64,000 nt of DNA. Origin: Mytilisepta virgata. Taxonomy: Eukaryota > Mollusca > Bivalvia > Mytilida > Mytilidae. Positions 2,661-54,167 of the stretch are shown here, piece by piece. The position numbers and the translations under genes are program-made. Location: NCBI GenBank assembly GCA_028015205.1, contig JAPWFG010000073.1:61001-125000 (forward strand). The letters run 5' to 3'. The notes beneath the pieces were generated by a model. It worked only from the letters and a program-made list of their open reading frames with translations. It did no database searches and was not told the origin of the DNA. The first letter of the stretch is position 1, and every line of letters begins with the position of its first letter.

Positions 2661-2672
2661 ATAATATTTTAG

Positions 2673-3600: not shown

Positions 3601-4290
3601 ACGTCAACGACAGACACATATTTGAGTTGCACACGGATTTGGGACTACATGACGCAAATATAAATGATATATAAAAAATAGTGACATAATAGAAGAATTG
3701 TCTTAATAGTAAAACCATATTAACAGATTAATTTGAGACCACTCCCAATATGCCACAAATTATTCAACACCTACTTTCTTTCCATAAATATTTCATCACG
3801 TAGTTTTGTTATATTTTCGTGACATTCATTAAATCAGTTTCATATCAAAAGAATTGGTGTACGACTAATATAATATTATGTTTCCTGGTATTTTAATACT
3901 TTCCTTGGTTATCGGTGGGTGGATGTCAGACTTTAATTTTCTTTCCATCAATATTTCATCACGTAGTTTTGTTATATTTTCATCACATTACTTAAATCAG
4001 TTTCATATCAAAAGAAAAAACTCAATTTGTTTCAAAATATACTAACATAAGTAGATCGGATGGATAATGTCTACACAAGTTGTAAGATTTTGTTGATAAT
4101 GATATTGGGAGAAATATTTGATTCAGTATATGTCTGTGCTTTCATTCATACACATATATAATGAAAAGAAAACAATTCGGAGGTTTAGCATATCATCTCA
4201 TTTTATTAAGAGCGAAAATATAGATACAATGAGACAAGTAAATGTATTATTAAATTCATTGTTGATAGGGTTTTTATATTTATTTTACAG

Positions 4291-4299
4291 AAAGTATAC
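4291..4299 (+). CDS. Candidate microexon A1 (9 nt)
   Basis: AAAGTATAC lies between a TTTATTTTACAG acceptor and a GTAAGTATAA donor. In the phase-1 frame (2+6+1) the complete codons read Ser-Ile. Length is a multiple of three. No transcript evidence is available here. Confidence 0.55.
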
Positions 4300-5024
4300 G
4301 TAAGTATAATCTAGATATTTAAAATAAATGAAACTGCAGGTAATTGTTGAATAAATGCCAAAGTCTGTATTGTTAATAAGATATAATACATTCATTGTAC
4401 TAAATATTAGACATTGTATTCTCTTTTCTAATATAATGGATCGCTGTCCCGCAGAGTAGACAAGAACAATAAAATCTTTGATACCAGTTTTGATGCACAA
4501 GATGTGCAAATTTCGTCGATTTACGACTCGTCAGTCGTTTAAAGCCAAAACAGCAATCCGAAAACTTGAAAAGAAAAAAATTTAAAATTCCAAAATAAAA
4601 CAGTGTTAGAAAATGTTGTATTGTGACTTTTTCTATAATATTAGGTACTTTCTCACAAAAATATTTTATGCGCGAAGTACTAGATAACATATCAGCATCA
4701 CTGATATCGTTGTGTTACTTTACAATTCAGATGCATTTTAAAACTTCTGCTGTCGTATAACTTAAGGATATTTTATAAACAAATTACTGATCAATACGTT
4801 AGTTAAAAATTAATTAAAAAATACGAAAAACATTTGCGGAATAAAATTACACAAAACTTTTCTGGTATTAAATTTGTGGAAATTTTTGGGCCTAACTATT
4901 CAAACTAATCAATTTTTTTGTATTAGTAATACAAGGCATCTGCTTAGTTTCGTTGATTTAAAATTTCAAAAAAATTGAAATGAAAAGGTGTTGTTATTGG
5001 CACCATTGTTTAATTTCAAATGAT

Positions 5025-5963
5025 AATTCTAATATGACGGCCTTCAAAGGCTTTGGGACCACATGCGTGGTAAAACATCAGTTGCCATATGAGCTGCACG
5101 GGACTTAGTTGGTTGTTCTACAGCAGTTACTCCCATCGGAAATCGTTTACCGCTCAATTTGATTGGTTGTTATTTTTGCAATTCTGAGAACCGTTGATTA
5201 AATTTCTATATTTAGAATAGGGGTTTCTAAATGTCGTTGTAGTTGTTATAAATACATTTTCATTCATTCTGATGTAGCGCGAATAAAAGTTAAATAAATA
5301 TAACAAAACATAATAAACTTGAACAATGTTTTATCAATAGTTTTTAACCATTGATTAATTAAAATTATGATTCCCCCATCCCTCCCCCGAAAAAAAATCG
5401 GATACAATCATTATCATCAGGCCTCGTCCGAAAGAAATTCAGACCCGAATTGTGCCTATTTGAGAGAGATTTCCTGAGGGATTCTCAGTCTGACGAGGAA
5501 TTGGGCAACATGGAATTCCTCCCTGAAGACACCACACATACTGATTCAGAAGAATGTTGGAAAAATAATGTACACACACATCACGTGTAAGATTACCGTT
5601 GTGTAAAAATCCATTCTTACAATATGACAATGTGAATTTAAACCAAATCTTCGATAGGTGTAATCGATAAATAAACATTCTCCTCTTCATTTCGTGAAAA
5701 TCTTACATCTAAACAGAAAAACAGAACCAAAACAGCGCATCGAACAGGTTTGTTGTACTTGTGACGTTGTGTGTCAAATTACCGGAATAGCCAAATACGT
5801 CGGAAATCAGAGTTCACCTTAGGTCACGGCAATATAAATAAAACATCGTAATTGTCCTATTAGAATCTAAATAATTCACGGAGACTCCAGTTTATCATTG
5901 TTTTACCACGGGCTAGCCATTTATGCCTTTTATTTTACCCTGAGCGCCCCATGAATTATTTCT
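5025..5963. mobile_element. ~940-bp insertion in array unit 1, MITE-like
   Basis: Other array units run directly from TTCAGATGATA into AATAAACAGTAAAC. Here ~940 bp lie between. A 12-bp inverted pair, CGTGGTAAAACA (5,066-5,077) and TGTTTTACCACG (5,899-5,910), sits near the ends. TAA on both sides could be a 3-bp target duplication. Inside, 5,421-5,590 holds an acidic plus-strand open frame of ~55 codons. The identical insertion occurs at 8,572-9,510, so it predates the local duplication. No transposase was recognised. Confidence 0.55.
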
Positions 5964-6525
5964 TAAATAAACAGTAAACTTCCTTGAAGTACCTCAGTGG
6001 TTAATTTTATCTCATACAGATGTATTACCATTTAGATTGAAGCAAAAAATGCTATTTCAAGAATAATTCATATTTTGTTTGGTTCGTAAATTGTTCATGA
6101 TATCCGCTAAAATTGGTGTACGACTAATATAATAGGTTCCTAGTATTTTAAAACTTTCCGTGGTTATTGGTGGATGGATGTTAGACTTTAATTTTCTTTC
6201 CATAAATATTTAATCGCGTACTTTTGTTATATTTTCATTACATTACTTAAATCAGTTTCATATCAATTTGTTTGAAAATATACTAACATAGTTAGATCGG
6301 ATGGATAATGTCTACGCAAGTTGTAAGATTTTGTAGATAATGATATTGAGAGAAATATTTGATTCTGTACATGTCTGTGCTTATATTCATACATATATAT
6401 AATGAAAAGAAAACAAGGTTTAGCATATCATCTAATTTTATTGAGAGCGGAAATATAGATACAATGAGACAAATAAATGTATTATTAAATTCATTGTTGA
6501 TAGGATTTTTATATTTATTTTACAG

Positions 6526-6537
6526 GGAAAAGTTATG
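6526..6537 (+). CDS. Candidate microexon A2 (12 nt)
   Basis: GGAAAAGTTATG lies between the conserved acceptor and a GTAAGG donor (the other units have GTAAGT). The phase-1 frame gives Lys-Ser-Tyr. Its flanks match those of A4 almost perfectly but the exon differs at three positions. Confidence 0.55.
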
Positions 6538-7837
6538 GTAAGGATAATCTAGATATTTAAAATAAATGCAACTGCAGGTAACTGTTGAAGACATGCCAAA
6601 GTCTGTATTGTTTATAAGATATAATACATTCATTGTACTAAGTATTAGACATTGTATTCTCTTTTCTAATATAATGGACCGCCGTCCAGCAGAGTAGACA
6701 AGAACAATGGATATAATAATATGTTTGATACCAGTTTTGATGCACAAGTTGTGCAAATGTTGTCGCTTTACGACTCGTCAGTCGTTGAAAACCAAAACAA
6801 TAATCCGAAAAATTGAAGAGAAAATTCTAGAAATTTCAAAATAAAACAGTGTTGGATAATGTTGTATTGTGACTTTTTCTATGATCATAGATACTTTCTC
6901 ACAACAATATTTTATGCGCGTAGTACTAGATAACATGCCAGCATCACTTATATCGTTGTGTTACTGTACAATTCAGATGCATTTTTAAGGATAATTTATG
7001 AACAAATTACTGATCAATACGTTAGTGACTAATTAATTAAAAAAAATGGAAATTTATTTGCGGAATAAAACGACACAAAGCTTTTCCGGTATTAAGTTGG
7101 TGGAAATTTTTGGGCCTGACTATTGAAACTAATCAATTTTTGTGTATTAGTAATAAAAGGCATCTGCTTAGTTTCGTTGATTTAAAATTTCAAAAAAATG
7201 AAATGAAAAGGTGTTGTTATTTGCGCCATTGTTTAATTTCAGATGATAAATAAACAATAACTTCCTTGAAGTACCTCAGTGGTTAATTTTATCTCATACA
7301 GATGTATTACCATTTAGATTGAAACAAAACATGCTATTTCAAGAATAATTCATATTTGTTGGGTTCGTAAATTGTTCATGATATCCGCTAAAATTGGTGT
7401 ACGACTAATATAATAGGTTACTAGTATTTTAAAACTTTCCGTGGTTATTGGTGGATGGATGTTAGACTTTAATTTTCTTTTTGTAGATAATGATATTTAG
7501 AGAAATATTTGATTCTGTATGTCTGTGATTTAATTCATACACATAATTATATTATGAAAGAAAAAAACTCAAGTTGTTTCAAAATATACTAGCATAAGTA
7601 GATCGGATGGATAATGTCTACACAAGTTGTAAGATTTTGTTGATAATGATATTGGGAGAAATATTTGATTCAGTATATGTCTGTGCTTTAATTCATACAC
7701 ATATATAATGAAAAGAAAACAATTCGGAGGTTTAGCATATCATCTCATTTTATTGAGAGCGAACATATTGATACAATGAGACAAGTAAATGTATTATTAA
7801 ATTCATTGTTGATAGGGTTTTTATATTTATTTTACAG

Positions 7838-7846
7838 AAATTATAC
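7838..7846 (+). CDS. Candidate microexon A3 (9 nt)
   Basis: AAATTATAC lies between the conserved acceptor and GTAAGTATAA. The phase-1 frame gives Ile-Ile. It is the duplicate counterpart of A1 (one change) and A5 (two changes). Confidence 0.55.
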
Positions 7847-8571
7847 GTAAGTATAATCTAGATATTTAAAATAAATGCAACTGCAGGTAATTGTTGAATA
7901 AATGCCAAAGTCTGTATTGTTTATAAGATATAATACATTCATTGTACTAAATATTAGACATTGTATTCTCTTTTCTAATATAATGGATCGCTGTCCCGCA
8001 GAGTAGACAAGAACAATAAAATCTTTGATACCAGTTTTGATGCACAAGGTGTGCAAATTTCGTCGATTTACGACTCGTCAGTCGTTTAAAGCCAAAACAA
8101 CAATCCGAAAACTTGAAGAGAAAAATTTTAAAAATTCCAAAATAAAACAGTGTTAGAAAATGTTGTATTGTGACTTTTTCTATAATATTAGGTACTTTCT
8201 CACAAAAATATTTTATGCGCGTAGTACTAGATAACATATCAGCATCACTGATATCGTTGTGTTACTTTACAATTCAGATGCATTTTAAAACTTCTGCTGT
8301 CGTATAACTTAAGGAGATTTTATAAACAAATTACTGATCAATACGTTAGTTAAAAATTAATTAAAAAATACGAAAAACATTTGCGGAATAAAATTACACA
8401 AAACTTTTCTGGTATTAAGTTTGTGGAAATTTTTGGGCCTAACTATTCAAACTAATCAATTTTTTTGTATTAGTAATACAAGGCATCTGCTTAGTTTCGT
8501 TGATTTAAAATTTCAAAAAAATTGAAATGAAAAGGTGTTGTTATTGGCACCATTGTTTAATTTCAAATGAT

Positions 8572-9510
8572 AATTCTAATATGACGGCCTTCAAAGGCTT
8601 TGGGACCACATGCGTGGTAAAACATCAGTTGCCATATGAGCTGCACGGGACTTAGTTGGTTGTTCTACAGCAGTTACTCCCATCGGAAATCGTTTACCGC
8701 TCAATTTGATTGGTTGTTATTTTTGCAATTCTGAGAACCGTTGATTAAATTTCTATATTTAGAATAGGGGTTTCTAAATGTCGTTGTAGTTGTTATAAAT
8801 ACATTTTCATTCATTCTGATGTAGCGCGAATAAAAGTTAAATAAATATAACAAAACATAATAAACTTGAACAATGTTTTATCAATAGTTTTTAACCATTG
8901 ATTAATTAAAATTATGATTCCCCCATCCCTCCCCCGAAAAAAAATCGGATACAATCATTATCATCAGGCCTCGTCCGAAAGAAATTCAGACCCGAATTGT
9001 GCCTATTTGAGAGAGATTTCCTGAGGGATTCTCAGTCTGACGAGGAATTGGGCAACATGGAATTCCTCCCTGAAGACACCACACATACTGATTCAGAAAA
9101 ATGTTGGAAAAATAATGTACACACACATCACGTGTAAGATTACCGTTGTGTAAAAATCCATTCTTACAATATGACAATGTGAATTTAAACCAAATCTTCG
9201 ATAGGTGTAATCGATAAATAAACATTCTCCTCTTCATTTCGTGAAAATCTTACATCTAAACAGAAAAACAGAACCAAAACAGCGCATCGAACAGGTTTGT
9301 TGTACTTGTGACGTTGTGTGTCAAATTACCGGAATAGCCAAATACGTCGGAAATCAGAGTTCACCTTAGGTCACGGCAATATAAATAAAACATCGTAATT
9401 GTCCTATTAGAATCTAAATAATTCACGGAGACTCCAGTTTATCATTGTTTTACCACGGGCTAGCCATTTATGCCTTTTATTTTACCCTGAGCGCCCCATG
9501 AATTATTTCT
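8572..9510. mobile_element. Second copy of the ~940-bp insertion
   Basis: Nearly identical to 5,025-5,963, including the internal open frame. One difference noticed turns a GAA codon into AAA. It was carried along by the ~3.55-kb tandem duplication rather than inserted independently. Confidence 0.6.
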
Positions 9511-10072
9511 TAAATAAACAGTAAACTTCCTTGAAGTACCTCAGTGGTTAATTTTATCTCATACAGATGTATTACCATTTAGATTGAAGCAAAAAATGCT
9601 ATTTCAAGAATAATTCATATTTTGTTTGGTTCGTAAATTGTTCATGATATCCGCTAAAATTGGTGTACGACTAATATAATAGGTTCCTAGTATTTTAAAA
9701 CTTTCCGTGGTTATTGGTGGATGGATGTTAGACTTTAATTTTCTTTCCATAAATATTTAATCGCGTACTTTTGTTATATTTTCATTACATTACTTAAATC
9801 AGTTTCATATCAATTTGTTTGAAAATATACTAACATAGTTAGATCGGATGGATAATGTCTACGCAAGTTGTAAGATTTTGTAGATAATGATATTGAGAGA
9901 AATATTTGATTCTGTACATGTCTGTGCTTATATTCATACATATATATAATGAAAAGAAAACAAGGTTTAGCATATCATCTAATTTTATTGAGAGCGGAAA
10001 TATAGATACAATGAGACAAATAAATGTATTATTAAATTCATTGTTGATAGGATTTTTATATTTATTTTACAG

Positions 10073-10084
10073 GGAAAAATCGTG
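10073..10084 (+). CDS. Candidate microexon A4 (12 nt)
   Basis: GGAAAAATCGTG lies between the conserved acceptor and GTAAGTATAA. The phase-1 frame gives Lys-Asn-Arg. Compared with A2, Ser became Asn and Tyr became Arg although the surrounding introns are nearly identical. Confidence 0.55.
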
Positions 10085-11384
10085 GTAAGTATAATCTAGA
10101 TATTTAAAATAAATGCAACTGCAGGTAACTGTTGAAGACATGCCAAAGTCTGTATTGTTTATAAGATATAATACATTCATTGTACTAAGTATTAGACATT
10201 GTATTCTCTTTTCTAATATAATGGACCGCCGTCCAGCAGAGTAGACAGGAACAATGGATATAATAATATGTTTGATACCAGTTTTGATGCACAAGTTGTG
10301 CAAATGTTGTCGCTTTACGACTCGTCAGTCGTTGAAAACCAAAACAATAATCCGAAAAATTGAAGAGAAAATTCTAGAAATTTCAAAATAAAACAGTGTT
10401 GGATAATGTTGTATTGTGACTTTTTCTATGATCATAGATACTTTCTCACAACAATATTTTATGCGCGTAGTACTAGATAACATGCCAGCATCACTTATAT
10501 CGTTGTGTTACTGTACAATTCAGATGCATTTTTAAGGATAATTTATGAACAAATTACTGATCAATACGTTAGTGACTAATTAATTAAAAAAAATGGAAAT
10601 TTATTTGCGGAATAAAACGACACAAAGCTTTTCCGGTATTAAGTTGGTGGAAATTTTTGGGCCTGACTATTGAAACTAATCAATTTTTGTGTATTAGTAA
10701 TAAAAGGCATCTGCTTAGTTTCGTTGATTTAAAATTTCAAAAAAATGAAATGAAAAGGTGTTGTTATTTGCGCCATTGTTTAATTTCAGATGATAAATAA
10801 ACAATAACTTCCTTGAAGTACCTCAGTGGTTAATTTTATCTCATACAGATGTATTACCATTTAGATTGAAACAAAACATGCTATTTCAAGAATAATTCAT
10901 ATTTGTTGGGTTCGTAAATTGTTCATGATATCCGCTAAAATTGGTGTACGACTAATATAATAGGTTACTAGTATTTTAAAACTTTCCGTGGTTATTGGTG
11001 GATGGATGTTAGACTTTAATTTTCTTTTTGTAGATAATGATATTTAGAGAAATATTTGATTCTGTATGTCTGTGATTTAATTCATACACATAATTATATT
11101 ATGAAAGAAAAAAACTCAAGTTGTTTCAAAATATACTAACATAAGTAGATCGGATGGATAATGTCTACACAAGTTGTAAGATTTTGTTGATAATGATATT
11201 GGGAGAAATATTTGATTCAGTATATGTCTGTGCTTTAATTCATACACATATATAATGAAAAGAAAACAATTCGGAGGTTTAGCATATCATCTCATTTTAT
11301 TGAGAGCGAAAATATTGATACAATGAGACAAGTAAATGTATTATTAAATTCATTGTTGATAGGGTTTTTATATTTATTTTACAG

Positions 11385-11393
11385 AAAGTATGC
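11385..11393 (+). CDS. Candidate microexon A5 (9 nt)
   Basis: AAAGTATGC lies between the conserved acceptor and GTAAGTATAA. The phase-1 frame gives Ser-Met. It differs at two of nine positions from A3, its closest neighbour by intron sequence. Confidence 0.55.
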
Positions 11394-12702
11394 GTAAGTA
11401 TAATCTAGATATTTAAAATAAATGCAACTGCAGGTAATTGTTGAATAAATGCCAAAGTCTGTATTGTTTATAAGATATAATACATTCATTGTACTAAATA
11501 TTAGACATTGTATTCTCTTTTCTAATATAATGGATCGCTGTCCCGCAGAGTAGACAAGAACAATAAAATCTTTGATACCAGTTTTGATGCACAAGGTGTG
11601 CAAATTTCGTCGATTTACGACTCGTCAGTCGTTTAAAGCCAAAACAACAATCCGAAAACTTGAAGAGAAAAATTTTAAAAATTCCAAAATAAAACAGTGT
11701 TAGAAAATGTTGTATTGTGACTTTTTCTATAATATTAGGTACTTTCTCACAAAAATATTTTATGCGCGTAGTACTAGATAACATATCAGCATCACTGATA
11801 TCGTTGTGTTACTTTACAATTCAGATGCATTTTAAAACTTCTGCTGTCGTATAACTTAAGGAGATTTTATAAACAAATTACTGATCAATACGTTAGTTAA
11901 AAGTTAATTAAAAAATACGAAAAACATTTGCGGAATAAAATTACACAAAACTTTTCTGGTATTAAGTTTGTGGAAATTTTTGGGCCTAACTATTCAAACT
12001 AATCAATTTTTTTGTATTGGTAATACAAGGCATCTGCTTAGTTTCGTTGATTTAAAATTTCAAAAAAATTGAAATGAAAACGTGTTGTTATTGGCGCCTT
12101 TGTTTAATTTGAAATGATAAATAAACAGTAAACTTCTTTGAAGTACCTCAGTGGTTAATTTTATCTCATACAGATGTATTACCATTTAGATTGAAACAAA
12201 ACATGCTATTTCAAGAATAATTCATATTTGTTGGGTTCCTAAATTGTTTATGATATCCGCCAAAATTGGTGTACGACTAATATAATAGGTTCCTAGTATT
12301 TTAAAACTTTTCGTGATTATCAGTGGATGGATGTTCGACTTTAATTTTCGTTCCATAAATATTTCATCACGTACTTTTGTTATATTTTCATTACATTACT
12401 TAAATAAGTTTCATATTAAAAGAAAAAAAAACTCAAATTTGTTTGAAAATACACTAACATAGTTAGATCGGATGAATAATGTCTACACAATTTGTAAGAT
12501 TTTGCAGATAATGATATTGGGAGAAATATTTGATTCTGTAAATGCCTATGCTTTAATTCATACATATATATAATGAAAAGAAAACAATTCGGAGGGTTAA
12601 CATATCATCTAATTTTATTGAGAGCGGAAATACAGATACAATGAGAGAAGTAAATGTATTATTAAATTCATTGTTGATAGGGTTTTTATATTTATTTTAC
12701 AG

Positions 12703-12714
12703 TGACAATTGAAC
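12703..12714 (+). CDS. Candidate microexon A6 (12 nt)
   Basis: TGACAATTGAAC lies between the conserved acceptor and GTAAGTATAA. Phase 0 and phase 2 readings meet TGA stops. The phase-1 frame is open and gives Thr-Ile-Glu. It is identical to B3 at 54,156, its counterpart in array B. Confidence 0.55.
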
Positions 12715-14334
12715 GTAAGTATAAACTAGATATTTAAAATAAATGCAACTGCAGGCAATTGTTGAATAAAATCCAAAGTCTTCATTGTTTATAAGATATA
12801 ATACATTCATTGTACTAAGTATTAGACATTGGATTCTCTTTTCTAATATAATGGATCGCTGTCCCGCAGAGTAGACAAGAACAATGGATATAATAAAATG
12901 TTTGATACCAGTTTTGATGCACAAGATGTGCAGATGTCGTCGATTTACGACTCGTCAGTCGTTGAAAACCAAAACAACAATCCGAAAAGTTTAAGAGAAA
13001 ATTTTAAAAATTCCAAAATAAAAGAGTTTTGGATAATGTTGAATTGTGACTTTTTCTATAATCATAGGTACATTCTCAGAAAAATATTTTATGTGCGTAG
13101 TACTAGATAACATGTCACCATCACTGATATCTTTGTGCTACTACACAATTCAGATGCATTTTAAAACCTCTGCTGTCGTATCACTTAAAGAGATTTGATG
13201 AACAAATTACTGATCAATACGTTAGTGACTAATTAGTTAAAATAATAAGAAAACAATTGCAGAATTAAAACGACACAAGGTTTATTCGCTACTAAGTTGG
13301 TGGACATTTTTGGGCCTAACTTTTCAAACTAATCATTTTTTGTGTATTGGTAATACAATTCATCTTCTTAGTTTACCTCATACATGTGTATTACCATTTA
13401 GAATATAACAAAACATGCTATTTCAAGAATAATTCATATTTTGTTGGATTCGTAAATTGTTAATGATATCCGCTAAAATTGGTGTACGACTAATATAATA
13501 GTTTCCTGGTATTTTAATACTTTCCTTGGTTATCAGGGGATTGATGTTAGACTTTGATTTTCTTTCCATCAATATTTCATGACGTACTTTTGTTATATTT
13601 TCATTACATTACTTAAATCAGTTTCATATCAAAAAGAAGAAAAGTAACTCATTTTGCGTGAAAATATACTAACATAGTTGAATCGGATGGATAACACGAG
13701 ATGTAATATTTTGTAGATAATGATATTGGGGAAAATATTTGATTCTGTTTATGTGCATGTTATAATTTATACACATATAGAATAAAAATAATGTTTGACA
13801 CTCCGATTCTTATTTATTATTAGTATTATTATTTGATACTAGATATGTGTTTACTTTGTATTTTCCTGAAAAGAGAACCATTTTTGTGTCTCCCTTCCAA
13901 GGAAGGGAGACGTATTGTTTTAGTCGTCCCCAACGAAGTGGGGTGACATATTGTTATTGTACCTTTCTTTTATTTTATTTTCTTTCTTCACCCATTTTTT
14001 CCAGACAGAATCTCGGATATGGATGGACCAATGTTGATGGAATTTGCCATCAACTGAAAATTGTGGTTTCTGCAGACAAAAAATAATTTTGAATTTGATA
14101 CTAAATATGTGTTTAGTTTGTATTTTCCTGAAAATAGAAAACCAATTTTTGATAATTATATTTGAATGGAAGAGATATAATCTTGGATTCCAAAAAATAA
14201 ATATTTTAGTTGATAGATAAAAAAGTAAAGAGCTTTTTTGTGCACGTTTTTTTTATAGTTTTTCCAATTAGTATAATGATTGGAATTTCGCAATCCATAA
14301 TTCATTTGACAAAATTCCTGCCAATGACGCAACA

Positions 14335-14847: not shown

Positions 14848-15081
14848 GAGCTCATAGATCACAAGAAATATTAAATAGATTTCTATCAATTGACTTGGTT
14901 CCATCACATGACGGTAGAATACTTGTGGTTGGAAGTTATGGAGCAGGTAAAACTACACTAGTAATGAACCTTATCTATGAGAAGATCCCAAAAGAAAGAC
15001 AGAGTACCATTGGAATTGATGTTTATTTTGGAAACCTGCTGTTTGATGTAAAGAATAGACGACTTCTTAGGAGAAAAGCTG
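14848..15081 (+). CDS. ROCO gene, P-loop (G1/G2) exon
   Basis: A 234-nt exon, phase 1 at both ends (acceptor TTTTCTAG, donor GTAATC). It carries the Walker A motif G-S-Y-G-A-G-K-T-T (14,931-14,957) and a Q-S-T-I-G-I-D-V switch I region, the usual Roc arrangement. An ATG inside the continuation (14,895 onward) gives an open frame that runs into the intron and is not the true start. The exon is duplicated at 59,409-59,642 with six base changes, five of them amino-acid altering. Confidence 0.88.
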
Positions 15082-18000
15082 GTAATCACAACTTTATTTA
15101 TCTTGAATTTTTAACAGACCAGTTTTTTTGTTGTTTCAAGATTTGGATGATATATGCATATATATATAGATTTATCTTTAACGTTTTTTTTTTTGGGATT
15201 CTCTGGTAATTTGGTAATTAGAAGATTTTCGAGGAATTCATGTTAATTATTTCAAAAGTTATATATCCTAAAGTGACATTGATTACAAGAATAGATTCAA
15301 TGTTGGCATAATACAACGTCATTGTTTTGTCACGTAAGGATGTTCGCTTGTCATGTTTTTGAATTTTTGTAAGATGTTCAGAATCATCTGGTTTTATCAT
15401 GTGAATGCAATAAATTATTTTTCCCGCTCACACCATGAACACCCATTTTTCTTTTCATAAATCTTTTGCATCCAGAATAATAAGCCATTTGTAAAAGTCT
15501 TATAAAATCCTTGTTTATATTTAATGGTTTTTGAGAAATAAAACTTGTCAATGTTAAAGCTATGTAGAATAGAGAAAGCATATTTTTCGCGCCAATTTTC
15601 CAATGGCTTCTATCTCGAAAACAAGCACACTGACCTATATTTTTTTCTGCTCTTTTAGTTCCTTTATTAATACATTATTAAAAAATACTATTAATATTTA
15701 CCAGTGGTATGAAAGGCTTGTTATTTTGAAATTGAGCAGAGAACACCCTTAATTACTTATGCATACTCAATAATAACTCTCTTACATATTTGCAGTAAAT
15801 AGTTGTCATTAAGTTGACATTTGACTAAAACAGTGGATATTAAGACATGGATATAACTAAGACAAGAATTTGTATCAAAGTATGCTTACCATTCTTCGCT
15901 GCATCGGTTTAAAAGTGGTCAATGTTGCAACATTATACCTTTTTTTAGCCAAGAAACGTGCAAAGGTTTTTACTTCCAACTCGTCTCCTCCACGCCATCA
16001 AGCATTGTTTGTCAAGAACATCCTCGCAAGTGGTAACCAAAGGACGTCCTAAATTTCAATCCTGATATTTTTGCCCGAAACGGGAATCAAACAAGGGACC
16101 TTCTTTAAACACTATCCCATGGTGCACACTTACCACTTACTACCATTAAGGAATTATTGCCCCTGGTTTGTATCATTCCCTTAGCTGTTACTGTTTCGGC
16201 AAGGAATGCATATAAATGTGTTGTAAGTTTCATTTTGGTAATTAAGACATTTCATCACATATTGGGAAACTAAATAAAAAGTTGACCTGTTTAGCTACCT
16301 CAGGTTTTGTTTCTTTCAATGTTTTGGATTTTTCATTGTTTTGATCTCTGAAAATGTCTGATATAGAAAGTCATAACAGTTACATTCCTATGTTCATTCA
16401 CTTTTAAGTTTGGTTATTGGGAACTCCATAAAGGTTTCAAAAGATAATTTTTCTTTAGATTAAACATTTCATTAAACTAATGTGATGCTCTAATTAACGT
16501 ATTTTTTCAGGTCAGCATTCTTTCCCAAAGGCATTGTACCAAAAGTTATTGGCATACCTGAACACAGTGGACTTGATTCAAAGGAAGCGAGAACCAGAAA
16601 AGAATCAGTGGACGATAAGACCAGCAACCATAAAAAATATACAAGAAAAAGTAAATGTGTTTGCGGAATCAGCAGATGCCCACAATGAAGATTTAATTCC
16701 TATCCCGATTCTAGATTTTGCTGGTCAGATTGTCTATCTAGCAACACATCAAACATTTATTACATCACATGGTATTTATGCAGTTACTTTCGATGGAGCA
16801 AAAGATCTAAGCAGTGTATTGCAGGAAGATTTTAGCACTGTAAATGAAAACTACACAATACTTGGTAATTATGATTTAAATAAACCAACACTGTTTTCTG
16901 CATTAATTTTCCGAGAATGTATCAGCTTCATTTAGACTTTATTTATGAGATTAAAAACAAACCAAACAAAAGGGGTAGATTACTCTTATTACGTCGTTTA
17001 ATTAATGACATTTAATTGGAAACTCAAATGTATTCTTCCCCAAACAAGAACAAGTTTAGCTGTTACTGTATAAAAAGAATATGAGATTACAGTCTTCACC
17101 AAAAAAGAAAACAAGTATATAATTTTTTATCAAGTCTTTATTTGTTATTTTATTGAGGCGTGATTAGGTCATTAGGTTTTTTTTCATGTAATTTATGACG
17201 TGCAATCGATGTGTTTAGTTATTAATAGTATTAGATTTTTTTCCTGTATTGACTTTGATTTTTTATTATTATATGATTTTGAATTTCAGATGGCATCCGA
17301 CAGTGGGTTTCCTCAATTCTTACATATTGTTTCCCAGAAACCAAAGGATACCCAAAGATATTGTTTGTTGCTACGCATAGAGATCTTCTGGAAGATGTAA
17401 ATATATTCACAAAAATAACACAACGTAAAGGGGGATCTAAACACTAAATTTCCAAAAAAAGTACATAAAGAGATGCAATTATGGAATAGTAAAGCAGAAT
17501 TAAACAAAACATATGTAACAAAAATTGAAAAGCAAAGACACTCATGACCGTTAAGGAATGTTGGAAAAACAATTAACCAAGGAATATTGTCAAAGTTATT
17601 GATATATGTTTTACATCCAATATTGTTATTAAGCTTTCTTTTAAGCGTCACTCGTTTAACAAACAAACATACATGAACGTGGACATTGTTCGCTGTGCTA
17701 TCTTGTACAGTGGCAATGTTCCGCTAAAAAATGCATCCTTAGCTGAACATTCTGTATTCTGTTCTACTCACGATACAATATACTCTTTGAAAAAATATTC
17801 TAAAGGATAATTTCGTACTTAAAAGAGAATTCCATACACATGCATATCTATTCCCATCAATTTTTATAACCCATAAAGAAAAATCCCTCCGCAAATATTT
17901 ACACCGGAAGTAACTGTCTGACTTTCCGGTTGTGTAAAAAATAAGACCAGTTTATAATATATAATATTTTTTATATAACTGTTTTACGTACAGTTTTTTT

Positions 18001-21000
18001 TTTTATATGAAGAAAAACAACACATTTTACCTATAATATAAATCCGAATGGCAAACCTAATTCAAAGCTGCAAAAATCACTAAAAACAACGTGGTCCTCA
18101 ACCAACATTTTCATCGCAAATTCAAACTCAACTTGTGGAAACTTCTTTTTACAGTTAGTATTTTCAGAAATCAAAAGATAGATTTTATTCAAAATAGTAG
18201 CTAAACATTGCAAAAAAATAAATCGAATAGAGAATGGAAACAGGGAAAGTGCCAAAGAGACAACAACCCAACCAAAGAGTAGAAAACAGCCCAAAGCCAC
18301 CAATTTGTCGGGTTTCAGCTGGCCCCTAAACAATAATTCATACTGGTTCAGCGAAATGGACGCCATACTAAACTCCGAAACGTAAAAAAGAACCAATATT
18401 AATAAAACACACAAGACTAACAAAAATCCTGACTTGGGACTTGGGACAGGCGCAACAATGCGTCTGAGTTAAACGAAAGTAAGCATATTATCTGTGACAA
18501 GATTTATGCATCGGATTCCAGTACGTGCATGCATGCTAAACGATATTGAATCTATTGTCTTCTGCAAAATGTGGTCGACATTCATTATAGAATCTATATT
18601 ATGACTGAAAAAACGGAGTTATATAAAAATTAAGAATGATATGTGCATAAGTGTTTTAATGAAACGCTTTAAACGCACCATAAATAAATGATTTTTTGAA
18701 TATCAAAACAGAGTGCATATAACATAGCAACATTTCAATTTTTGTAAATTAGTTTTTGATCTTTTAAGACAATTCCTCTTATTGTTAAAAATCGTTAAGA
18801 ATAAAGCTTAATTTATACATTTTTCTTACAATATAACATATCAATGTTTGATAAATCTAAATTTCTCTCTTCTTAATGTTGGGGGCTCGAAATTGTACAC
18901 ACGATAATCATCATTTTTAATTTTCATTATTTTAGATCATATTATCGACTGAAAAAACATGTGACTTTTAAGCTTATCTGGCCAAAGGCCAATTTTAGCT
19001 ATTACCATCACTTGGTTCCATCGTTATTTCGTACGTCGTCATCAGTCCGTTAACTTTTTCGCATTTGGATCTTCTTCTTGAGATCCACTGAACAGAATTT
19101 GACCAAAGTTGTAAGAGATTTTCGTTCTTACTGTTGTTACTTGGGTACCGATTGGTCAGGAAACATGGCTGTCAGACCCTATTCTAATTTCTGATTGGTT
19201 GTACTTTGAAAATAATTCTGAAGAAACACACACCCGATTGAACCCAAACTTAATAAATATGTTTTTATAGAGGTTCTTAACAAGTCTTGTCACTTTGGTG
19301 TCGATCCGAAATCCAAGATGGCCACCACGGCTGAATCTTTTCTAACATAAGGATTATATGGGACGATTCATTTAAAATTCTTGTGTGAAACCGCATAGTC
19401 AATTGGAATAAGACAATGCAGCAATGGTCCTTGACGATACTCCTTCAGTATTGTGTCGAATGACCCAGACTGCTAACTACTATGGCTGTAACAGCCGAAC
19501 TTTGTTGAATATAGGACCCCTTGGGAAAAGTTCATCGAAAATCTTCTTATCTGAAACTATTGAGCTTATAAGAAGCAAAGTCGGCAGAACTGGTCCTTAG
19601 GTTATCTCTCTTATGACCAGGGCTGTCGAGAACGATGGCCGCCTCCGTCGAACGTTTTTTAACATAGGACCCTATAAAACAATTTTTTAAAAAATCTTGT
19701 CTGAAACTACTGAAGCAATTGAGACCAGACCAGAAATTGCGCCTGCGTGGTCCTCAGTAAGAGTTGTGTTTTATGATCCGGAATGTCCAAAAAAAAAAAA
19801 AAAAAAACGTGGGCGCCAGAGCGAAACTTAGTTTAACATAGGATCTTGCGGGAAAAAATATTCTGATCTGAAAGCATCTAACCAATTTGAACCAAACTTG
19901 GCAGAAATGTATCGTAGGGCGTCTTCCCGCAGATATGTTTCTGATGACCTGGGTTGTCAACTAAGATGGCCACCAACGCCGACTTGGCAGCCATAGTTAT
20001 TAGACTGTCCTCTCAGAGAATCATCTACAATAATATGGACTGCTGTGTATTATGTGAATCTTTTGTCTTGGTTGACAAATTGAATGCAAGTGCCAATACA
20101 GGCTCCTCGGAGACTCTTTTTCAATAGGTTTGAACAATAACAACAATAAATGAAGTTATGTTTCAGAAAATCTTTTCAGGAACAAGTGGAAGACAAGAGG
20201 GAGGAATTTCTTCGAATTCTGAGAAGCACACTTACAGAGGAAAACATGAAATCACATCTTATGCTGGACACATTATTTTTTATCAACGCGACAGACCCAG
20301 AAGACGCTGAGATAACGAATCTTCGAAATGTCCTTGAGAAACTGATCTTGGAAAATCCACATTGGGATAAAAAAGTACCACGTCAGTTCCTTGTTCTTGA
20401 GATGATGCTGGCCGCATTAGTTGAACAAGGAAAGCTGATAATGTCTCGGACAGAGATAGATGATTTGAACAGGCAGACAGGGGATAAACCTCTTTCAGAA
20501 GAAGAGTTGGCATGTTTCCTTCACATTCAACACAATTGTGGAAAGTTGACATATCTGAATGTACCGGGTCTAAAGGATAATGTTGTAATCAATCCCGTCT
20601 GTTTGGTAGATGTCCTCAAGTCAGTTGTGACTTCAACACCGACTTTGCCAGACCTGAAAGAAGGACGTCTTCGAAAATCCGACCTGGCAACATTATGGAA
20701 ATCTGGCAATTTCATACAGTTTCTGCCTTTTGAAGATTACCTTAGAGAGCTACTTGTTCACTACGACATCTTAGCAGAGGTTAGACGGTATGATAAAGAA
20801 AGTGGAAAGAGGGGAGACGTGGATGTGTATCTTGTTCCGTGCATGGCGCCTAGGCATAACAAAACATCATTTGTGAGGAATTGTCTTACCAGAGATAAGT
20901 GCATCAGCTTCGTGTTTGAGTTCAAAACATCAGTTGTTCCTTCAGCTATACCAAGCAGAATGATAGCCTGCCTTATAAGTATGTGGAATGTCAAAGCTTA

Positions 21001-24000
21001 CGAAAACACGGAACTACTTTTTTCTGGGTTTGCTGGCGTGACAGTTGACAGAAAACACGATCTTGTCTTGCAGACTGAGGGAAACATGCTGGTATTGATT
21101 TTAATCCATAAAGAAAGAAAACAGCTTATCGTACGTGATCTTGCCTCGAGTGTACGAGAATGTCTTGAACAAAATTTAATAAGAATTTCAGAGGTGTACT
21201 CTCTTTCTTTCTCTACTGATCTGATGTCAAAGAGGTACGTGCCATTTGAGCTAAAAGTAAGATCAGGATGTTTCAACTCCAGTTGCTTGTTGGATCCCAA
21301 CGATTTGCTGCAGCTAGACCAAACCTGGAAGTGTGCCAATCATGGTGTCGAGACACCATCATCAGAGCTGGATATTTGGTATACTGATAGGGTATGTCTT
21401 ATTTTATCATGAAGCGATAACAGAAAATTGTATACAGATCCTCCAATGAAAGCAAAATTAACACATTATTACAATAAAATAAACCAGGGTAAAAAGTAGT
21501 CAGACTAGGAGTCTCTCTGAGGTTAAATATTGTAAATAATAAAACTGATAACAGGAAAGATCAACATACCAATCAAATTGACAGAACCTCAGACAAACAA
21601 TATCATAAAAGATCATAAAACTAAAAACTACAAATAGAACGATAGTCTGATTTAGTAATTACAACTAACAATGCAAAAGATAATACAACGAGTTACCAAA
21701 GAGGAAAAACATATAAATTGTCTGTTATAAGCCTAACAGTTAGAAACTTTGAAAGAAAAAATATCTGCAAAATAAAAGATCAGACAAGTGTTGTATATTA
21801 ATCTTTTCCCTTTCCGTGTTATTGGTAAGAGACATGTATTGTTATTCATTCCAGATAAACTACTTGAAAGTAACCTACAAATCATGTGTACTTGTTAGCA
21901 ATTTAAGAATTTAGTAAGAAATAAAATGTTCCTTTCATTTTCTAGGGATTTCAAGAATGTACTACCTCTTGTCATGGTAAGTACTGACTGAAAATTTATC
22001 CCCCATTAGCTTGTATTTCGAAATGTAATTAACAGTTTTTGTTGTTTTGTTTTATTTAGTTCAAACTTTAAAATATTCCAAAAACAATTTTTGATAGTCT
22101 TCCAAGGTAAATATTATTTAAAATTGACCGTATTAAAGTAATATCAAAACAATGGGAAAAATAAAAAGAAAGAAACCTTTCTAGTTATATGTTTCTGTAT
22201 CAAGTTAATCGTTTAACATCTAAATGGATTTTTCCAGGCATTGTGGACGCTGTACTTTCCATGTTTTTGAACGATACACATTTGTTGCGTATATGCAGCT
22301 TTCTGACTGTAGAGGAAGTTCGTAGTCTTGCAGTACATCTTGGAATGTCTAAGCCAGAATTGGATGAAGTTGAGCAAAACAACCATATGGCATCAATGTT
22401 AAAGTTTTACAGTCTACGGGCCTGTAGAGAGAAGAATAAATCGTGTGCAGATTTTGTCAAAGCGATGGAACAGGCAGAAATCAACAAACATACAATGTGC
22501 AAGGTACTTACTTTGTTGCTATAAAAACATGTGCAAGATACCTAAAAATATTGTATTTCACTCTAAAGAATACGATCACATGAAGCCGTTGTTCCTGCCG
22601 TTCCTACTACACATAATACAGATACAAATCATAGTAATGTTTTCACCCTACTGTTTTTAATTTCAATGTGATGTGTATTTTATATTCGAAAAATAAAAAT
22701 GTGAATGTCAAATACTAAAGGGTGAATAAATAAAAAATCAAACAAGTTTAAAAGTGTGGTTTAGAAAGTTAAAGTTTAGTTTGATGATTAATTGTTTGAA
22801 GTTGCATTTAAACAGTCGGAACGTGGATGTGCAGGAGAATAAAATGTCTTGATAAAACCATCATACATATATCATGTTTTATGGTTTATGATATTTAACC
22901 ATCTTCGTTGATAAATTTTGCTTTCAAAGCTTGCAATTTAAAGATATGTGGTTGCGTAAAGTATAGTTATAATGTGCTTCTTATAAATCAAGTGGTTCTT
23001 GTTGCTTGTATCCCAGCACTTATTTACTTTAAATGCTTATAAAACATTTCTCAATTTGTAGTAAAACCTAAAAAAAAACTTATTTATCGAGAAGATATAT
23101 TTAAGGCCAAAAACGCAAACACTAATCGTGATCCAAACGGTATAATATCATAGCGTTTTCACATTCTAAGTCTTCTTAAAGATAAAATATAAATTCTTTA
23201 GAGATGAAAAAATTATTTGGTTTGTTTGATTTTGTTGACAGATACTGAGACAACAGGAGATACAAACAGGTAAAATTTTTTTTAAATTTTTTACAATGTA
23301 CATGTAAATGAAGATAGTAAATAATCGTATACACATTAATACAAATCAATACAAATGTATTAAGAAATAAGCTCCAATGTGGTATGTTTATACCTCGCTG
23401 GAAAAAAAATGTTTTATAGATTCAATGGAAGTATTGTTGTAAGAATTAGTTTGGTTTTTGGTTTTCCAAATGTTTCGGTTTTAATGCTGCTGATGAGAAG
23501 TAACTCCTTGAAATGCGTCGTATACAGCATAGTATTAATTTACTATATCTAATATTAGTATCTTTTGATTGTTATTTTGAAACTCCTGGGACGATGCCTC
23601 TGCATGGTGGACCCTAGGTCCCCGAGGGTATTCGCCAACCAAGTCGTCAGACTTATCTGACATGATTTTTCATTGATTTGTTACAGAAATTACCAGTATT
23701 TAGCCAAATTAATAGAAATACTAAGGGTTCATTCCTTGTATTGCACATGGTAGATCTCCTTAGCTGAAATTTGGCTTCCTGTTTCGGTATTTTTGTTTAT
23801 GAGTACTTCTTGTTTAAAATAAGTTTGGTTTTCTGGTCTTCAAAATGTTTCGGTTTAAATGCTCTGATGAGAGGTAACTCCTTGAAATGCGTCGTATACA
23901 TCATAGAATAAATTTACTATATCTAATATTAGTATCTTTGGATTGTTATTTTGATGACATGAACAACAACACAAATAACAGAAAGGGTCAGCAATGACAT

Positions 24001-25851
24001 ACCAACATAGACAAACATAACATAAAAGAGAACAAAACAAAAACAAAAAACTAAATATGTTGCGAAACAGCTGATGCGACAATAGATAACGAGAAAAATA
24101 AATGGAAATGGTGAGCTGTCAAAAGGGGCGTAAAACGACTGAAATGTATGAAATACACAAGTCGAACAAAACCAAATATAAAATCGTAAAAAACAACAAC
24201 AAACTAAAAAGTTAAAAATACCCAACGTTTCGACCAATATGGTCTTGATTACGAGCATGTAAAAAATAAAAATAAAAAGGTGTTGACTCTTTGAAACCCA
24301 GATTTTTAAATTTGGTTTTGTTCGACTTGTGTATTTCATACGATTTAGTCGTTTTACGCCCCTTTTGACAGCTCACCATTTCCATTTTCTTGTTATTAAA
24401 ACAAAAAAATGCTTGTAAAAACAGAGTTAGGATGGTTCGTCTTTGTACAGACAAAAAACAGGGGTTGTGTTTATCCTGTTTTATAGGTCACCCGAAATCC
24501 ATGTCTGTCCTGACCAATTAGTGAGCAAATCACATTAATGTGATTCAGTATTAAAGCTATGAAGCATGAATAAATCCAATGGAACATCCAGCAAAATTAA
24601 GTATCAATTTGCTCTGCTGTTTCTGATCTTTTCCTCTGAAACTACTGTATACATTGAGCCCAAACTCTGATTGTCCGTAGTGGTGATTTCAAGTGACCTG
24701 TACTTTGATTGAATAGTACTGCTGTTAAAATAATTAACAAATTGAACTATTCTCCTCTGAAATTGGTGAAGTTGATACTAAGGTCTGATGCAGTGGTACA
24801 TTTGGACATGTTTATATATTATCTGACACTAAATCATTACAACATAGCTTTAAACAAACTCGTGTATAACTGCTGAATTTGTCTCCTTATCACACACAAT
24901 TCTTAATGCTCAGGATTTCCTCAAAGCTCAAACCCATAATCCAAACAAACAGTCGAAGAGGAAATTCAAAAAAGGCAAATACAATCAGCAAAAATATTGA
25001 TTAGGCTTTCTTTTTAATACCGTTGTATAGTTCTTTTGAATCCAAATTAAGGGAAGGTGAGGGATAAAGGTTCAGCTTGGATAAGAAAAGAACGGATATG
25101 CAGTAAAAATATTTATACTATGCGACCAAAATTTCTGCCCTGCATGATTAATTACGTCAATGCCTTTAAATTTTCCGTTCAAAATTTGACAACATTTACC
25201 AGAAATTGCTACGGCTCTTCTTTTTTATGCAGAGGCAACCCTTAGCTGAGTTTGGATTTCTGTTTGTTTTGATTGTTTTGGTTTTTGATGGTTGTGCTTA
25301 ATAATTCATCATTGTATCTTTAATAATCTTTTAATTTCCAACATTTTGATCTCGAGCACTGCTGATGAATTGTCAGTCAACGAAATGGCCATACAGTGCA
25401 TCAAATTTACTTCTGTTTTTTGTGATATATTTTATTAATGGATGGAAACCAGCCTCAATATTGACTTATTTCTAGGATAGTATTATAAAGCCTAAGTGTT
25501 CATTGTCATTTATTAGAGTACTTAACTTTAGATTTGCCGGACAGTATTCTGAAGCATTCACCTAGTGATGAAATGTTAGACAAGATCTGTTTACGCATTG
25601 GAAAAGAATGGATGGTATTGGGCCTGGAGCTTGGATTGGAAATCGAGCGTCTCGAACAGATTGAGTATGACAGTCCGAGAGTGTTACGTGAAGTGAGTCG
25701 AAATATGCTGTACTGTTGGAGAAACCGAGACAATGAAGCTACGATTAGAGAGCTTTCACATGCCTTGGGAAGATGTGGAAGGAATCCTGGACTCATCCGG
25801 GAGATCTTGGAGAACTGCGATAGCTTCCCAAATCTCAAACCCGAAGACTAA
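14848..25851 (+). CDS. ROCO (Roc-COR) GTPase with two C-terminal Death-like domains, multi-exon gene
   Basis: Eight exons can be joined with consistent phases: 14,848-15,081; 16,511-16,864; 17,290-17,396; 20,180-21,391; 21,946-21,976; 22,238-22,503; 23,242-23,269; 25,532-25,851. Together they encode about 849 residues ending at TAA. Order: Roc GTPase, COR dimerisation domain, Death-like domain, short linker exon, Death-like domain. ROCO proteins bind and hydrolyse GTP and dimerise through COR. Death domains recruit partners for apoptotic or innate immune signalling, so a cytosolic signalling scaffold is a reasonable inference. The first exon has a phase-1 acceptor and no start codon, so the N-terminus lies upstream, possibly through the microexons of array A and exons left of the window. 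No kinase or LRR is visible. All recognised G motifs are intact and no stops or frameshifts were found in these exons, so the gene looks functional. Confidence 0.88.
16511..16864 (+). CDS. ROCO gene, switch II (G3) exon
   Basis: A 354-nt exon, phase 1-1 (acceptor ATTTTTTCAG, donor GTAATT). It encodes the variable insert of the Roc domain followed by the strand ending in D-F-A-G-Q (16,714-16,728), the Roc equivalent of Ras DxxGQ. The next stretch, Y-L-A-T-H-Q-T-F, is typical of ROCO proteins. Unlike the first exon it has no counterpart in the second copy within this window. Confidence 0.88.
17290..17396 (+). CDS. ROCO gene, G4 exon
   Basis: A 107-nt exon from acceptor TTGAATTTCAG (phase 1) to donor GTAAAT (phase 0). 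It encodes I-R-Q-W-V-S-S-I and then I-L-F-V-A-T-H-R-D (G4 motif THRD at 17,373-17,384), which sets guanine specificity. Using phase 0 at its end forces the next acceptor to 20,180. Confidence 0.85.
18200..18425 (-). repeat. High-copy interspersed repeat (AAAGAGACAACAACCC family)
   Basis: The block with AAAGAGACAACAACCCAACC and TCAGCTGGCC words recurs inverted at 28,130-28,310 (GGTTGTTGTCTCTTTGACAC, GGCCAGCTGAAGCC). The two are in opposite orientation. The element type is not recognised with certainty; I associate this sequence with abundant mussel repeats. Confidence 0.6.
18960..20020 (+). repeat. Divergent tandem repeat block 1 (CGTCGTC / AAGATGGCC family)
   Basis: Starts with TTACCATCACTTGGTTCCAT and TCGTCATCAGTCCGTTAAC, then repeats of the form (cttctctgaaac...aatttgaaccaaacttgg...gatccgaaatccaagatggccacc). 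It lies in the intron between the G4 exon and the COR exon. Open frames in it are incidental. Confidence 0.75.
20180..21391 (+). CDS. ROCO gene, end of Roc plus COR domain exon
   Basis: A 1,212-nt single exon, phase 0-0. The acceptor AAATCTTTTCAG is chosen over the TTTCAG at 20,166 because only it keeps the frame from the G4 exon. It begins with E-Q-V-E-D-K and contains L-F-F-I-N-A-T-D-P-E-D, the last beta strand of Roc. The COR domain follows: L-T-Y-L-N-V-P-G-L and V-V-I-N-P-V-C-L-V-D-V-L-K-S-V-V match the COR pattern of an aromatic strand followed by a P-x-W-L-x-D helix (here P-V-C-L-V-D). A winged-helix-like section and a beta-rich C-terminal part end with a Cys-containing segment (G-C-F-N-S-S-C) and donor GTATGT. 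404 codons without a stop. Confidence 0.92.
21946..21976 (+). CDS. ROCO gene, 31-nt exon
   Basis: Between TTTTCTAG and GTAAGT. Enters in phase 0 and leaves in phase 1, encoding G-F-Q-E-C-T-T-S-C-H. It links COR to the first Death-like domain. It is short but has strong splice sites and the right phase. Confidence 0.7.
22238..22503 (+). CDS. ROCO gene, first Death-like domain exon
   Basis: A 266-nt exon (acceptor ATTTTTCCAG, donor GTACTT), phase 1 to 0. The residues follow a six-helix Death-fold pattern: L-L-R-I-C-S-F-L, E-E-V-R-S-L-A-V-H-L-G-M, then P-E-L-D-E-V-E-Q-N (the usual helix 3/4 region) and a final A-C-R-E-K-N-K stretch with a helical tail. The classic helix-5 Trp is replaced by Tyr or Phe, so this is a diverged member. 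Confidence 0.8.
23242..23269 (+). CDS. ROCO gene, 28-nt linker exon
   Basis: ATACTGAGACAACAGGAGAT is its start; it lies between TTGTTGACAG and GTAAAA. Phase 0 to 1, encoding I-L-R-Q-Q-E-I-Q-T. It is supported only by splice sites and by supplying the phase change needed between the two Death-like exons. Confidence 0.6.
23484..23904 (+). mobile_element. Retrozyme-like unit bounded by two hammerhead ribozymes
   Basis: Two direct repeats (~23,445-23,585 and ~23,812-23,955) each hold a hammerhead. First: helix I ATGCTG/CAGCAT (23,484-23,489 / 23,525-23,530), CTGATGA 23,490-23,496, GAAA 23,510-23,513, helix III TGC-GTC-GTA, cut predicted after 23,524. Second: CTGATGA 23,864-23,870, helix II GAGG/CCTT, GAAA 23,884-23,887, cut after 23,898, with helix I damaged by loss of one G. 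The unit between the cuts is 374 bp and contains the TGGTGGAC..GTCCCCGAGG word common in bivalve repeats. This is the layout of animal retrozymes, which yield small circular RNAs. It sits in the intron before the last ROCO exon. Confidence 0.75.
24100..24380. repeat. Inverted repeat of an AAATGGAAATGGTGAGCTGTC block
   Basis: About 24,100-24,185 (AAATGGAAATGGTGAGCTGT...CAAGTCGAACAAAACCAAAT) is repeated in inverse orientation at about 24,305-24,390 (ATTTGGTTTTGTTCGACTTG...ACAGCTCACCATTTCCATTT). The arms are ~85 bp and nearly perfect around a ~120-bp centre, so this intron could form a long RNA hairpin. Confidence 0.85.
25345..25405 (+). ncRNA. Degenerate type I hammerhead ribozyme
   Basis: Close relative of the one at 2,827: CTGATGA 25,362-25,368, GAAA 25,382-25,385, the same GCACTG/CAGTGC helix I and the same palindromic helix III, cut predicted after 25,393. 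The first base pair of helix II is lost (A opposite C instead of G-C), which should weaken activity. It lies in the intron ~130 bp upstream of the last ROCO exon. Confidence 0.75.
25532..25851 (+). CDS. ROCO gene, terminal exon with C-terminal Death domain
   Basis: Acceptor TTAACTTTAG, phase 1, 105 codons and TAA at 25,849-25,851. Helical Death-fold pattern: L-D-K-I-C-L-R-I, then E-W-M-V-L-G-L-E-L-G-L (the conserved helix 2 W-x-x-L-A-x-x-L-G pattern), L-E-Q-I-E-Y-D (helix 3), M-L-Y-C-W-R-N-R (helix 5 with the typical Trp) and E-L-S-H-A-L-G-R-C-G-R (helix 6). It is a better match to classic Death domains than the preceding one. Confidence 0.88.
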
Positions 25852-51830: not shown

Positions 51831-52039
51831 AGTTTCTGTTTCAAAGTTTTAGTTAACTTAAATTTCTTTTAAAACTCATTTGTGGCTTGTGTCCCCTAAA
51901 AATAAAACGGATTTCATTTTATTTACGTCACTTTTAGCATATCATCTAATTTTATTGAGAGCGAAATTATAGATACAATGAAACAATTAAATGTATCATT
52001 AAATTCATTGTTGATAGGGTTTTTATATTTATTTTACAG

Positions 52040-52051
52040 AGGAAATTAAAA
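52040..52051 (+). CDS. Candidate microexon B1 (12 nt)
   Basis: AGGAAATTAAAA between the conserved acceptor and GTAAGTATAA. The phase-1 frame gives Glu-Ile-Lys. It sits in a truncated unit but the splice cassette is intact. Confidence 0.5.
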
Positions 52052-52825
52052 GTAAGTATAATCTAGATATTTAAAATAAATGCAAAAATTTACTGTAATT
52101 TTTGGGCCGAACTATTCAAACTAATCATCTTTTGTGTATTGGTAATAAAAGGCATCTGCTTAGTTTCGTTGATTTAAAATTAAAAAAAAATGAAATGAAA
52201 AGGTGTTGTTATTGGCGCCATTGTTTAATTTCAGATGATAAATAAACAGTAAACTTCCTTGAAGTACATCAGTGGTTAATTTTTATCTAATACAGATGTA
52301 TTACCATTTAGATTGAAACATAACATGCTATTTCGAGAATAATTCATATTTTGTTTGGTTTGTAAATTGTTCATGATATCCGCTAAAATTAGTGTACGAG
52401 TAGTATAATAGTTTCCTAGTATTTTAAAACTTTCCGTGATTATCGGTGGATGGATGTAAGACTTTAATTTTCTTTCCATAAATATTTCATCACGTACTTT
52501 TGTTATATTTTCATTACATTACTTAAATCAGTTTCATATTAAAAGAAACAAAAAACTCAATTAGTTTGAAAATACACTAACATAGTTAGATCGGATGGAT
52601 AATATCTACACAAGCTGTAAGATTTTGCAGATAATGATATTGGGAGAAATATTTGATTCTGTACATGTCTGTGCTTTAATTCATACATATATATAATGAA
52701 ACGAAAACAATTCGGAGGGTTAGCATATCATCTAATTTGATTGAGAGCGGAAATATAGATACAATGAGACAAGTAAATGTATTATTAAGTTTAATGTTGA
52801 AAGGGTTTTTATATTTATTTTACAG

Positions 52826-52837
52826 AGGAATTAGCCA
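52826..52837 (+). CDS. Candidate microexon B2 (12 nt)
   Basis: AGGAATTAGCCA between the conserved acceptor and GTAAGTATAA. The phase-0 reading meets TAG. The phase-1 frame is open and gives Glu-Leu-Ala. Confidence 0.52.
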
Positions 52838-54155: not shown

Positions 54156-54167
54156 TGACAATTGAAC
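54156..54167 (+). CDS. Candidate microexon B3 (12 nt)
   Basis: TGACAATTGAAC, identical to A6. The phase-1 frame gives Thr-Ile-Glu. Its surroundings also match A6 best, marking equivalent positions in the two arrays. Confidence 0.52.

Follow-up and report, generated by a model that had tools for sequence, protein, structure and literature searches.

Candidate phase-symmetric microexon cassettes in tandem ahead of a Roc-COR-Death gene of the mussel Mytilisepta virgata

Exon arrays in other organisms and the mussel locus

The closest precedent for the locus analysed here is provided by the tandem leucine-rich repeat (LRR) exons of brown-algal ROCO genes, which are diversified, alternatively spliced, 72 nt long and in phase 2, each of them encoding one LRR (PMC11378527; this source and the others cited are used in excerpt). 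In a window of 64,000 nucleotides from the mussel Mytilisepta virgata (the whole stretch analysed, positions 61,001 to 125,000 of contig JAPWFG010000073.1, assembly GCA_028015205.1, forward strand; coordinates below count from its first letter), 11 cassettes of 9 or 12 nt form two arrays, A with six and B with five, each lying ahead of one copy of the P-loop exon of a Roc-COR-Death gene (gene 1). Both systems place tandem same-phase exons of a length divisible by three before Roc-COR, and they have diversifying selection, duplication and shuffling in common; unlike the algal exons, the mussel cassettes are in phase 1, belong to an animal Roc-COR-Death gene and have a splicing that is predicted from sequence (PMC11378527). 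Our work establishes the anatomy and phase of the cassettes, their lack of stops and the restriction of their divergence to the exon, and we consider that they are probably real protein-coding, phase-symmetric microexons of gene 1 and of an at least partial second copy, under diversifying selection.

The variable exons of arthropod Dscam are domain-sized and mutually exclusive, the exons of aphid bicycle genes are longer than the mussel cassettes, and we know of no Roc or Death domain in bicycle genes; the human fast troponin T exons 4-8 are not known to form a tandem repeat array of recent origin with hypervariable exons. With Dscam, the mussel locus shares tandem arrays of variable exons between constant exons (general background on the Dscam side, mentioned in PMC11378527), unlike which its cassettes are ultra-short and could be added in any number. 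With schistosome micro-exon genes, as excerpted, it shares symmetrical exons of very small size whose skipping keeps the frame, the mussel cassettes being phase 1-1 by sequence in 11 of 11 cases; those genes consist mostly of microexons in their coding region, unlike gene 1 with its exons of 234, 354 and 1212 nt, and the mussel array is an addition to a large GTPase gene, with intron units that are near-identical repeats (PMC4350168). Many small same-phase internal exons and strong positive selection are found in aphid bicycle genes as well, which differ in encoding putative effector proteins and in their phase 2 (PMC9168663), and several neighbouring exons, alternatively spliced in troponin T, are common to the human fast troponin T exons 4-8 (PMC2447309). 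The mussel cassettes join features of the brown-algal, schistosome and aphid systems in a new way.

Among the open-access matches listed, the literature on tandem or clustered microexons concerns plants and mouse, and none describes a microexon array on a Roc-COR-Death protein. The sequence-only reading of this DNA knew of no such array on a Roc-COR-Death protein; this stands among these matches, but as a claim on ROCO proteins at large it has to be narrowed in view of the tandem LRR exons of brown-algal ROCO genes (PMC11378527). If our interpretation is right, this animal gene would adjust and diversify its signalling protein by single helical turns, the variation being limited to 9-12 bases within introns that are otherwise near-identical. 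Molluscan innate immunity would also gain a concrete case of exon-array diversification.

Cassette anatomy, phase and encoded peptide

All cassettes have the same layout, in which near-invariant acceptor and donor signals enclose 9 or 12 variable bases (Table 1). The six cassettes of array A previously proposed from the letters alone were all recovered in place with these signals, and the five of array B lie beyond the coordinates proposed there. Their acceptor TTTTTATATTTATTTTACAG is exact in six of six and their donor GTAAGTATAA in five, A2 having GTAAGGATAA instead, and their lengths run 9, 12, 9, 12, 9 and 12 nt in order. A pattern of 16 acceptor bases, 9-12 free bases and GTAAGTATAA matched 10 times in the window vs none in 100 dinucleotide shuffles. 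Searching both strands of the window with a profile of the ~165-bp core recovered the 11 cassettes and no other above noise (the next two matches have E 5.6 and 6), and the cassette pattern had 0 matches in the viral_contigs and genome_contigs collections, the second of which is prokaryotic and hence gives little information. Each array stops 1.06 kb short of its own copy of the 234-nt P-loop exon. Structured RNA was considered and rejected, with no Rfam match in the window and no better folding than shuffles in the four of the 11 cassette regions that were folded (z 0.46, 0.60, -1.05 and 1.31). Array B also contains six repeats of a 67-bp piece of its unit (54443-54843).

The P-loop exon starts in phase 1 in both copies, and phase 1 is also the only phase that is open in all 11 cassettes; among the 10 distinct ones, three contain stops in phase 0 and two in the remaining phase. 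Lengths that are multiples of three, as had been claimed, hold for 11 of 11. Since the cassettes combine such lengths with phase 1 at both ends, they could be linked in frame in any number, both among themselves and with the P-loop exon. Every in-order subset reads into Roc without a stop (63/63 for array A and 31/31 for array B, 94/94 in all), in a test that excludes the first split codon, which depends on the upstream base. No cassette ends in T, a terminal T being able to create a stop with the GA of the P-loop exon. When bases were shuffled within cassettes, only 0.5% (10 distinct cassettes) or 2.2% (seven classes) of the shuffles were equally stop-free in internal codons and possible junctions.

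Each cassette adds three or four residues, and not two to four as first suggested, which amounts to about one helical turn (the split codon being residue 1). Of the 10 distinct cassettes, 8 (6/7 classes) have I, L or M as residue 3, vs 1 of 16 (0/12) other full codons, a pattern that was reached in 0.08% of shuffles (P 0.0008). Because three to four residues make about one helical turn, the chain would keep a hydrophobic stripe at any length. The cassette string may extend an amphipathic or coiled-coil arm running into the Roc domain, to which each cassette would contribute about one turn of α-helix, usually with a hydrophobic third residue. We infer that the cassettes are included in mRNA, form such a helix and are used in combination, and that they may give an innate immune or cell-death switch a variable arm for recognition or dimerisation. 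For array A, the 9/12 alternation gives a 7-residue period if all cassettes are included, and the helical moment of this chain is above shuffles (P 0.02-0.04). A protein of Mytilus californianus (P0004) carries 7-residue repeats shortly before Roc (EEARRKV EEAQRKY EEAQRKH EEEMRKH), to which chain A aligns in register (shuffle P 0.04).

Real microexons that are all included in every transcript would build a fixed helical arm and no isoforms, a serious contender even if we give it somewhat less than an even chance, with the exact 7-residue period of array A under full inclusion and the uniformly strong splice signals in its favour; constitutive use does not require, however, that all 94 subsets be open, and the number and sequence of the cassettes are not equal between arrays A and B. 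The freedom in cassette number makes alternative inclusion a possible and attractive option, but fixed inclusion fits equally well. In the most elaborate version, which in our opinion is rather unlikely, an intracellular Roc-COR-Death immune switch would carry a helical arm that alternative splicing produces in as many as 63 forms from array A and 31 from array B, with cassettes diversifying in the germline tens of times faster than introns. Such a system would be an animal counterpart of the brown-algal LRR-ROCO exon arrays, made from the smallest useful unit of protein structure.

Divergence of the cassettes and alternative explanations

Divergence between the repeat units is concentrated in the cassettes. 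In an alignment of 10 of the 11 units (B1 was excluded, since only 153 bp of its unit is left), exon columns differ in 57.6% of unit pairs vs 8.0% for the remaining columns. Among 765 windows of 12 columns, none is more variable than the exon, with a peak at offset 0 and edges that fall exactly on AG and GT, and the flanks of the exon are under the unit mean (3.0% over the 24 columns before, 2.5% over the 34 after). Of the 21 same-length pairs, which are not independent of one another, 17 have an exon excess at P<0.05. The two youngest duplications are most telling, in blocks that were selected after the pattern had been seen and that end short of the duplication edges: three of six substitutions between A2 and A4 (2,491 bp, gap-free) lie inside the 12-nt exon (P 2e-6), and two of five between A3 and A5 (930 bp) inside the 9-nt exon (P 9e-4). 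Taken together, these pairs show 5 changes in 21 exon bases vs 4 in 1,500 flanking bases (raw counts), and every one of the five in exons is residue-altering (S-N, Y-R by two changes, I-S and I-M). The amino-acid-changing rate in the cassettes appears to be above the neutral rate.

A plausible mechanism is that strong intron-side signals (GTAAGTAT donor, U-rich acceptor) leave the exon bases free to vary; diversifying selection would then change these bases while the splice signals are held. Held splice signals, phase symmetry and replaced residues are the pattern expected of selection for varied short peptides and not of ordinary repeat decay. The proposal that the cassettes are microexon inserts before the GTP-binding domain is borne out in their coding appearance, i.e. 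they are phase-1 symmetric, stop-free, bounded by splice sites and changed by residue-altering substitutions.

The same excess could be produced by local hypermutation, or by short-tract conversion from unseen cassettes, and not by selection on the protein. Such a process would suit the very large recent rate excess (3/12 and 2/9 in exons vs 2/750 in the flanks of each pair) and one more change at donor +6 (6543), and identical flanks would hide conversion tracts. Nevertheless, the variable edges coincide with AG and GT, neighbouring bases vary less than the unit mean and five of five recent changes alter the amino acid; a mutational hotspot ending exactly at splice sites is not expected, and we judge this explanation to be improbable.

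Several observations weigh against coding microexons under diversifying selection. Four of the 21 same-length pairs show no exon excess (A1/A3, A1/A5, A1/B4 and A6/B3). Chain B has a helical moment that is not above shuffles (P 0.12-0.24) and is unlike the P0004 repeats (P 0.98). Among the 11 close Mytilus proteins with the P-loop, 10 have no pre-Roc repeat and only P0004 does, and the gene model of P0004 may be chimaeric or faulty, because it is fused to a piece of RBM26. No convincing upstream exon that would feed the arrays in phase was found in the window. A conserved candidate exon pair (2673-2719 and 49172-49266, of 47 and 95 nt, thus differing by 48 nt in length) can be read without stops in both copies only if it starts in phase 1 and ends in phase 0. 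The two P-loop exon copies differ at 6 of 234 bases, with five of the six differences being replacing, and no later exon of copy 2 was found with the gene 1 protein in 59643-64000, the remaining 4.4 kb of the window.

Some of these points would suit non-coding intronic repeat DNA, the cassettes being relics of one ancestral microexon or splicing decoys. No in-phase upstream exon was found in the window, copy 2 is possibly incomplete and tandem repeats copy whatever sequence they contain. Decay, on the other hand, should leave neither a phase limit nor an amino-acid pattern, and no excess restricted to the exon; of the 11 indel events in other parts of the aligned units, 7 are not divisible by three, vs none of the lengths of the 11 cassettes. 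We judge this origin to be improbable too. A location in a 5' leader, acting through the choice of translation start, is most unlikely: A5 and the B2-B3 junction each supply an in-frame ATG, which puts an in-frame M in both full chains, and no in-phase upstream coding exon was found in the window, but most cassettes have no ATG and leader exons require neither phase nor residue pattern.

Coding microexons could also account for doubtful N-termini in the gene models of several related mussel proteins. The N-termini of P0001, P0005 and P0007 look like reading frames that run on into a polypyrimidine tract, which is expected if the true upstream exons were missed by annotation. In plants, small microexons are described as pervasively misannotated (PMC8831610, in excerpt). 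A simple scan for an upstream exon found nothing in copy 1 and three weak candidates in copy 2, and a well conserved stretch precedes the candidate exon pair mentioned above. By eye, the ankyrin-Roc relatives P0016-P0020 have no repeat before Roc. Residues 40-141 of P0004 match RBM26 and are about 94% identical to RBM26 of other mussels, which points to a fusion gene or an annotation error.

Gene 1, the second copy and neighbouring features

The cassettes had been placed ahead of a ROCO GTPase, in agreement with downstream exons that encode Roc, a COR-like region and Death domains. Joined, the exons of gene 1 form an open frame that encodes 844 residues and ends at 25851. Roc reaches 40.9 bits on joined exons 1-6 vs a Pfam cutoff of 27, as for the Roc of ROCO proteins, and is directly followed by a COR-A match (E about 1e-6, 28.9-29.7 bits) under the cutoff of 35.3. 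The closest database proteins come from Mytilus (about 49-57% identity) and have between them Roc, COR and Death; most of the close Mytilus relatives are listed with PF16095.

Table 1. Position and supporting evidence of the cassettes, arrays and exons in the window
Feature	Position	Strand	Description	Evidence
Array A	3775..13788	+	Tandem units with six cassettes spaced at 1.3 or 2.2 kb; units at both ends partial	Self-BLAST
Cassette A1	4291..4299	+	9 nt	Acceptor/donor match, phase 1 open
Cassette A2	6526..6537	+	12 nt, donor GTAAGG	Acceptor/donor match, phase 1 open
Cassette A3	7838..7846	+	9 nt	Acceptor/donor match, phase 1 open
Cassette A4	10073..10084	+	12 nt	Acceptor/donor match, phase 1 open
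Cassette A5	11385..11393	+	9 nt	Acceptor/donor match, phase 1 open
Cassette A6	12703..12714	+	12 nt, exon sequence identical to B3	Acceptor/donor match, phase 1 open
Gene 1 P-loop exon	14848..15081	+	N-terminal part of Roc, phase-1 acceptor and phase-1 donor	Pfam Roc 28.1 bits, cutoff 27
Gene 1 exon	16511..16864	+	Remainder of Roc	Pfam Roc 21 bits alone (below cutoff), 40.9 bits on joined exons
Gene 1 exon	17290..17396	+	Likely Roc end	Splice signals, frame; similar stretch in Mytilus relatives
Gene 1 exon	20180..21391	+	COR-like	Pfam COR-A 29.7 bits, below cutoff 35.3
Gene 1 small exon	21946..21976	+	31 nt	Splice signals, frame; similar residues in Mytilus relatives
Gene 1 exon	22238..22503	+	First Death-like domain	Pfam Death 22.5 bits alone, 19.4 in joined protein, both below cutoff 22.6
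Gene 1 last exon	25519..25851	+	Second Death domain, 5' boundary tentative	Pfam Death 43.6 bits, cutoff 22.6
Array B	51933..58349	+	Five cassettes 0.8-1.7 kb apart	Self-BLAST
Cassette B1	52040..52051	+	12 nt, inside 153-bp core of unit	Self-BLAST, acceptor/donor match
Cassette B2	52826..52837	+	12 nt	Acceptor/donor match
Cassette B3	54156..54167	+	12 nt	Acceptor/donor match
Cassette B4	55825..55833	+	9 nt	Acceptor/donor match
Cassette B5	57146..57157	+	12 nt	Acceptor/donor match
Second P-loop exon copy	59409..59642	+	Same phases as gene 1	Pfam Roc 27.5 bits; 6/234 bases differ from gene 1

The second P-loop exon lies 44.6 kb from that of gene 1, in a segmental duplication that is present in pieces, with 1835-3155 collinear to parts of 43674-49620 and a 96.3% match between 13372-16149 and 57933-60699. 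Similarity of copy 2 to gene 1 stops at 60699, ahead of the expected place of the next exon. Copy 2 may be truncated or have a longer intron, and since no further exon of it was found in the window it may be broken or interrupted.

About 4.1 kb at 44952-49096 lies between the collinear segments of copy 2 and is absent from copy 1. It contains a GIY-YIG-like open reading frame (ORF) at 45390-45722, below the Pfam cutoff, which we take to suggest a Penelope-like retroelement. Between the two ROCO copies, an ORF with a C1q domain (52.7 bits) is located on the minus strand at 29018-29473.

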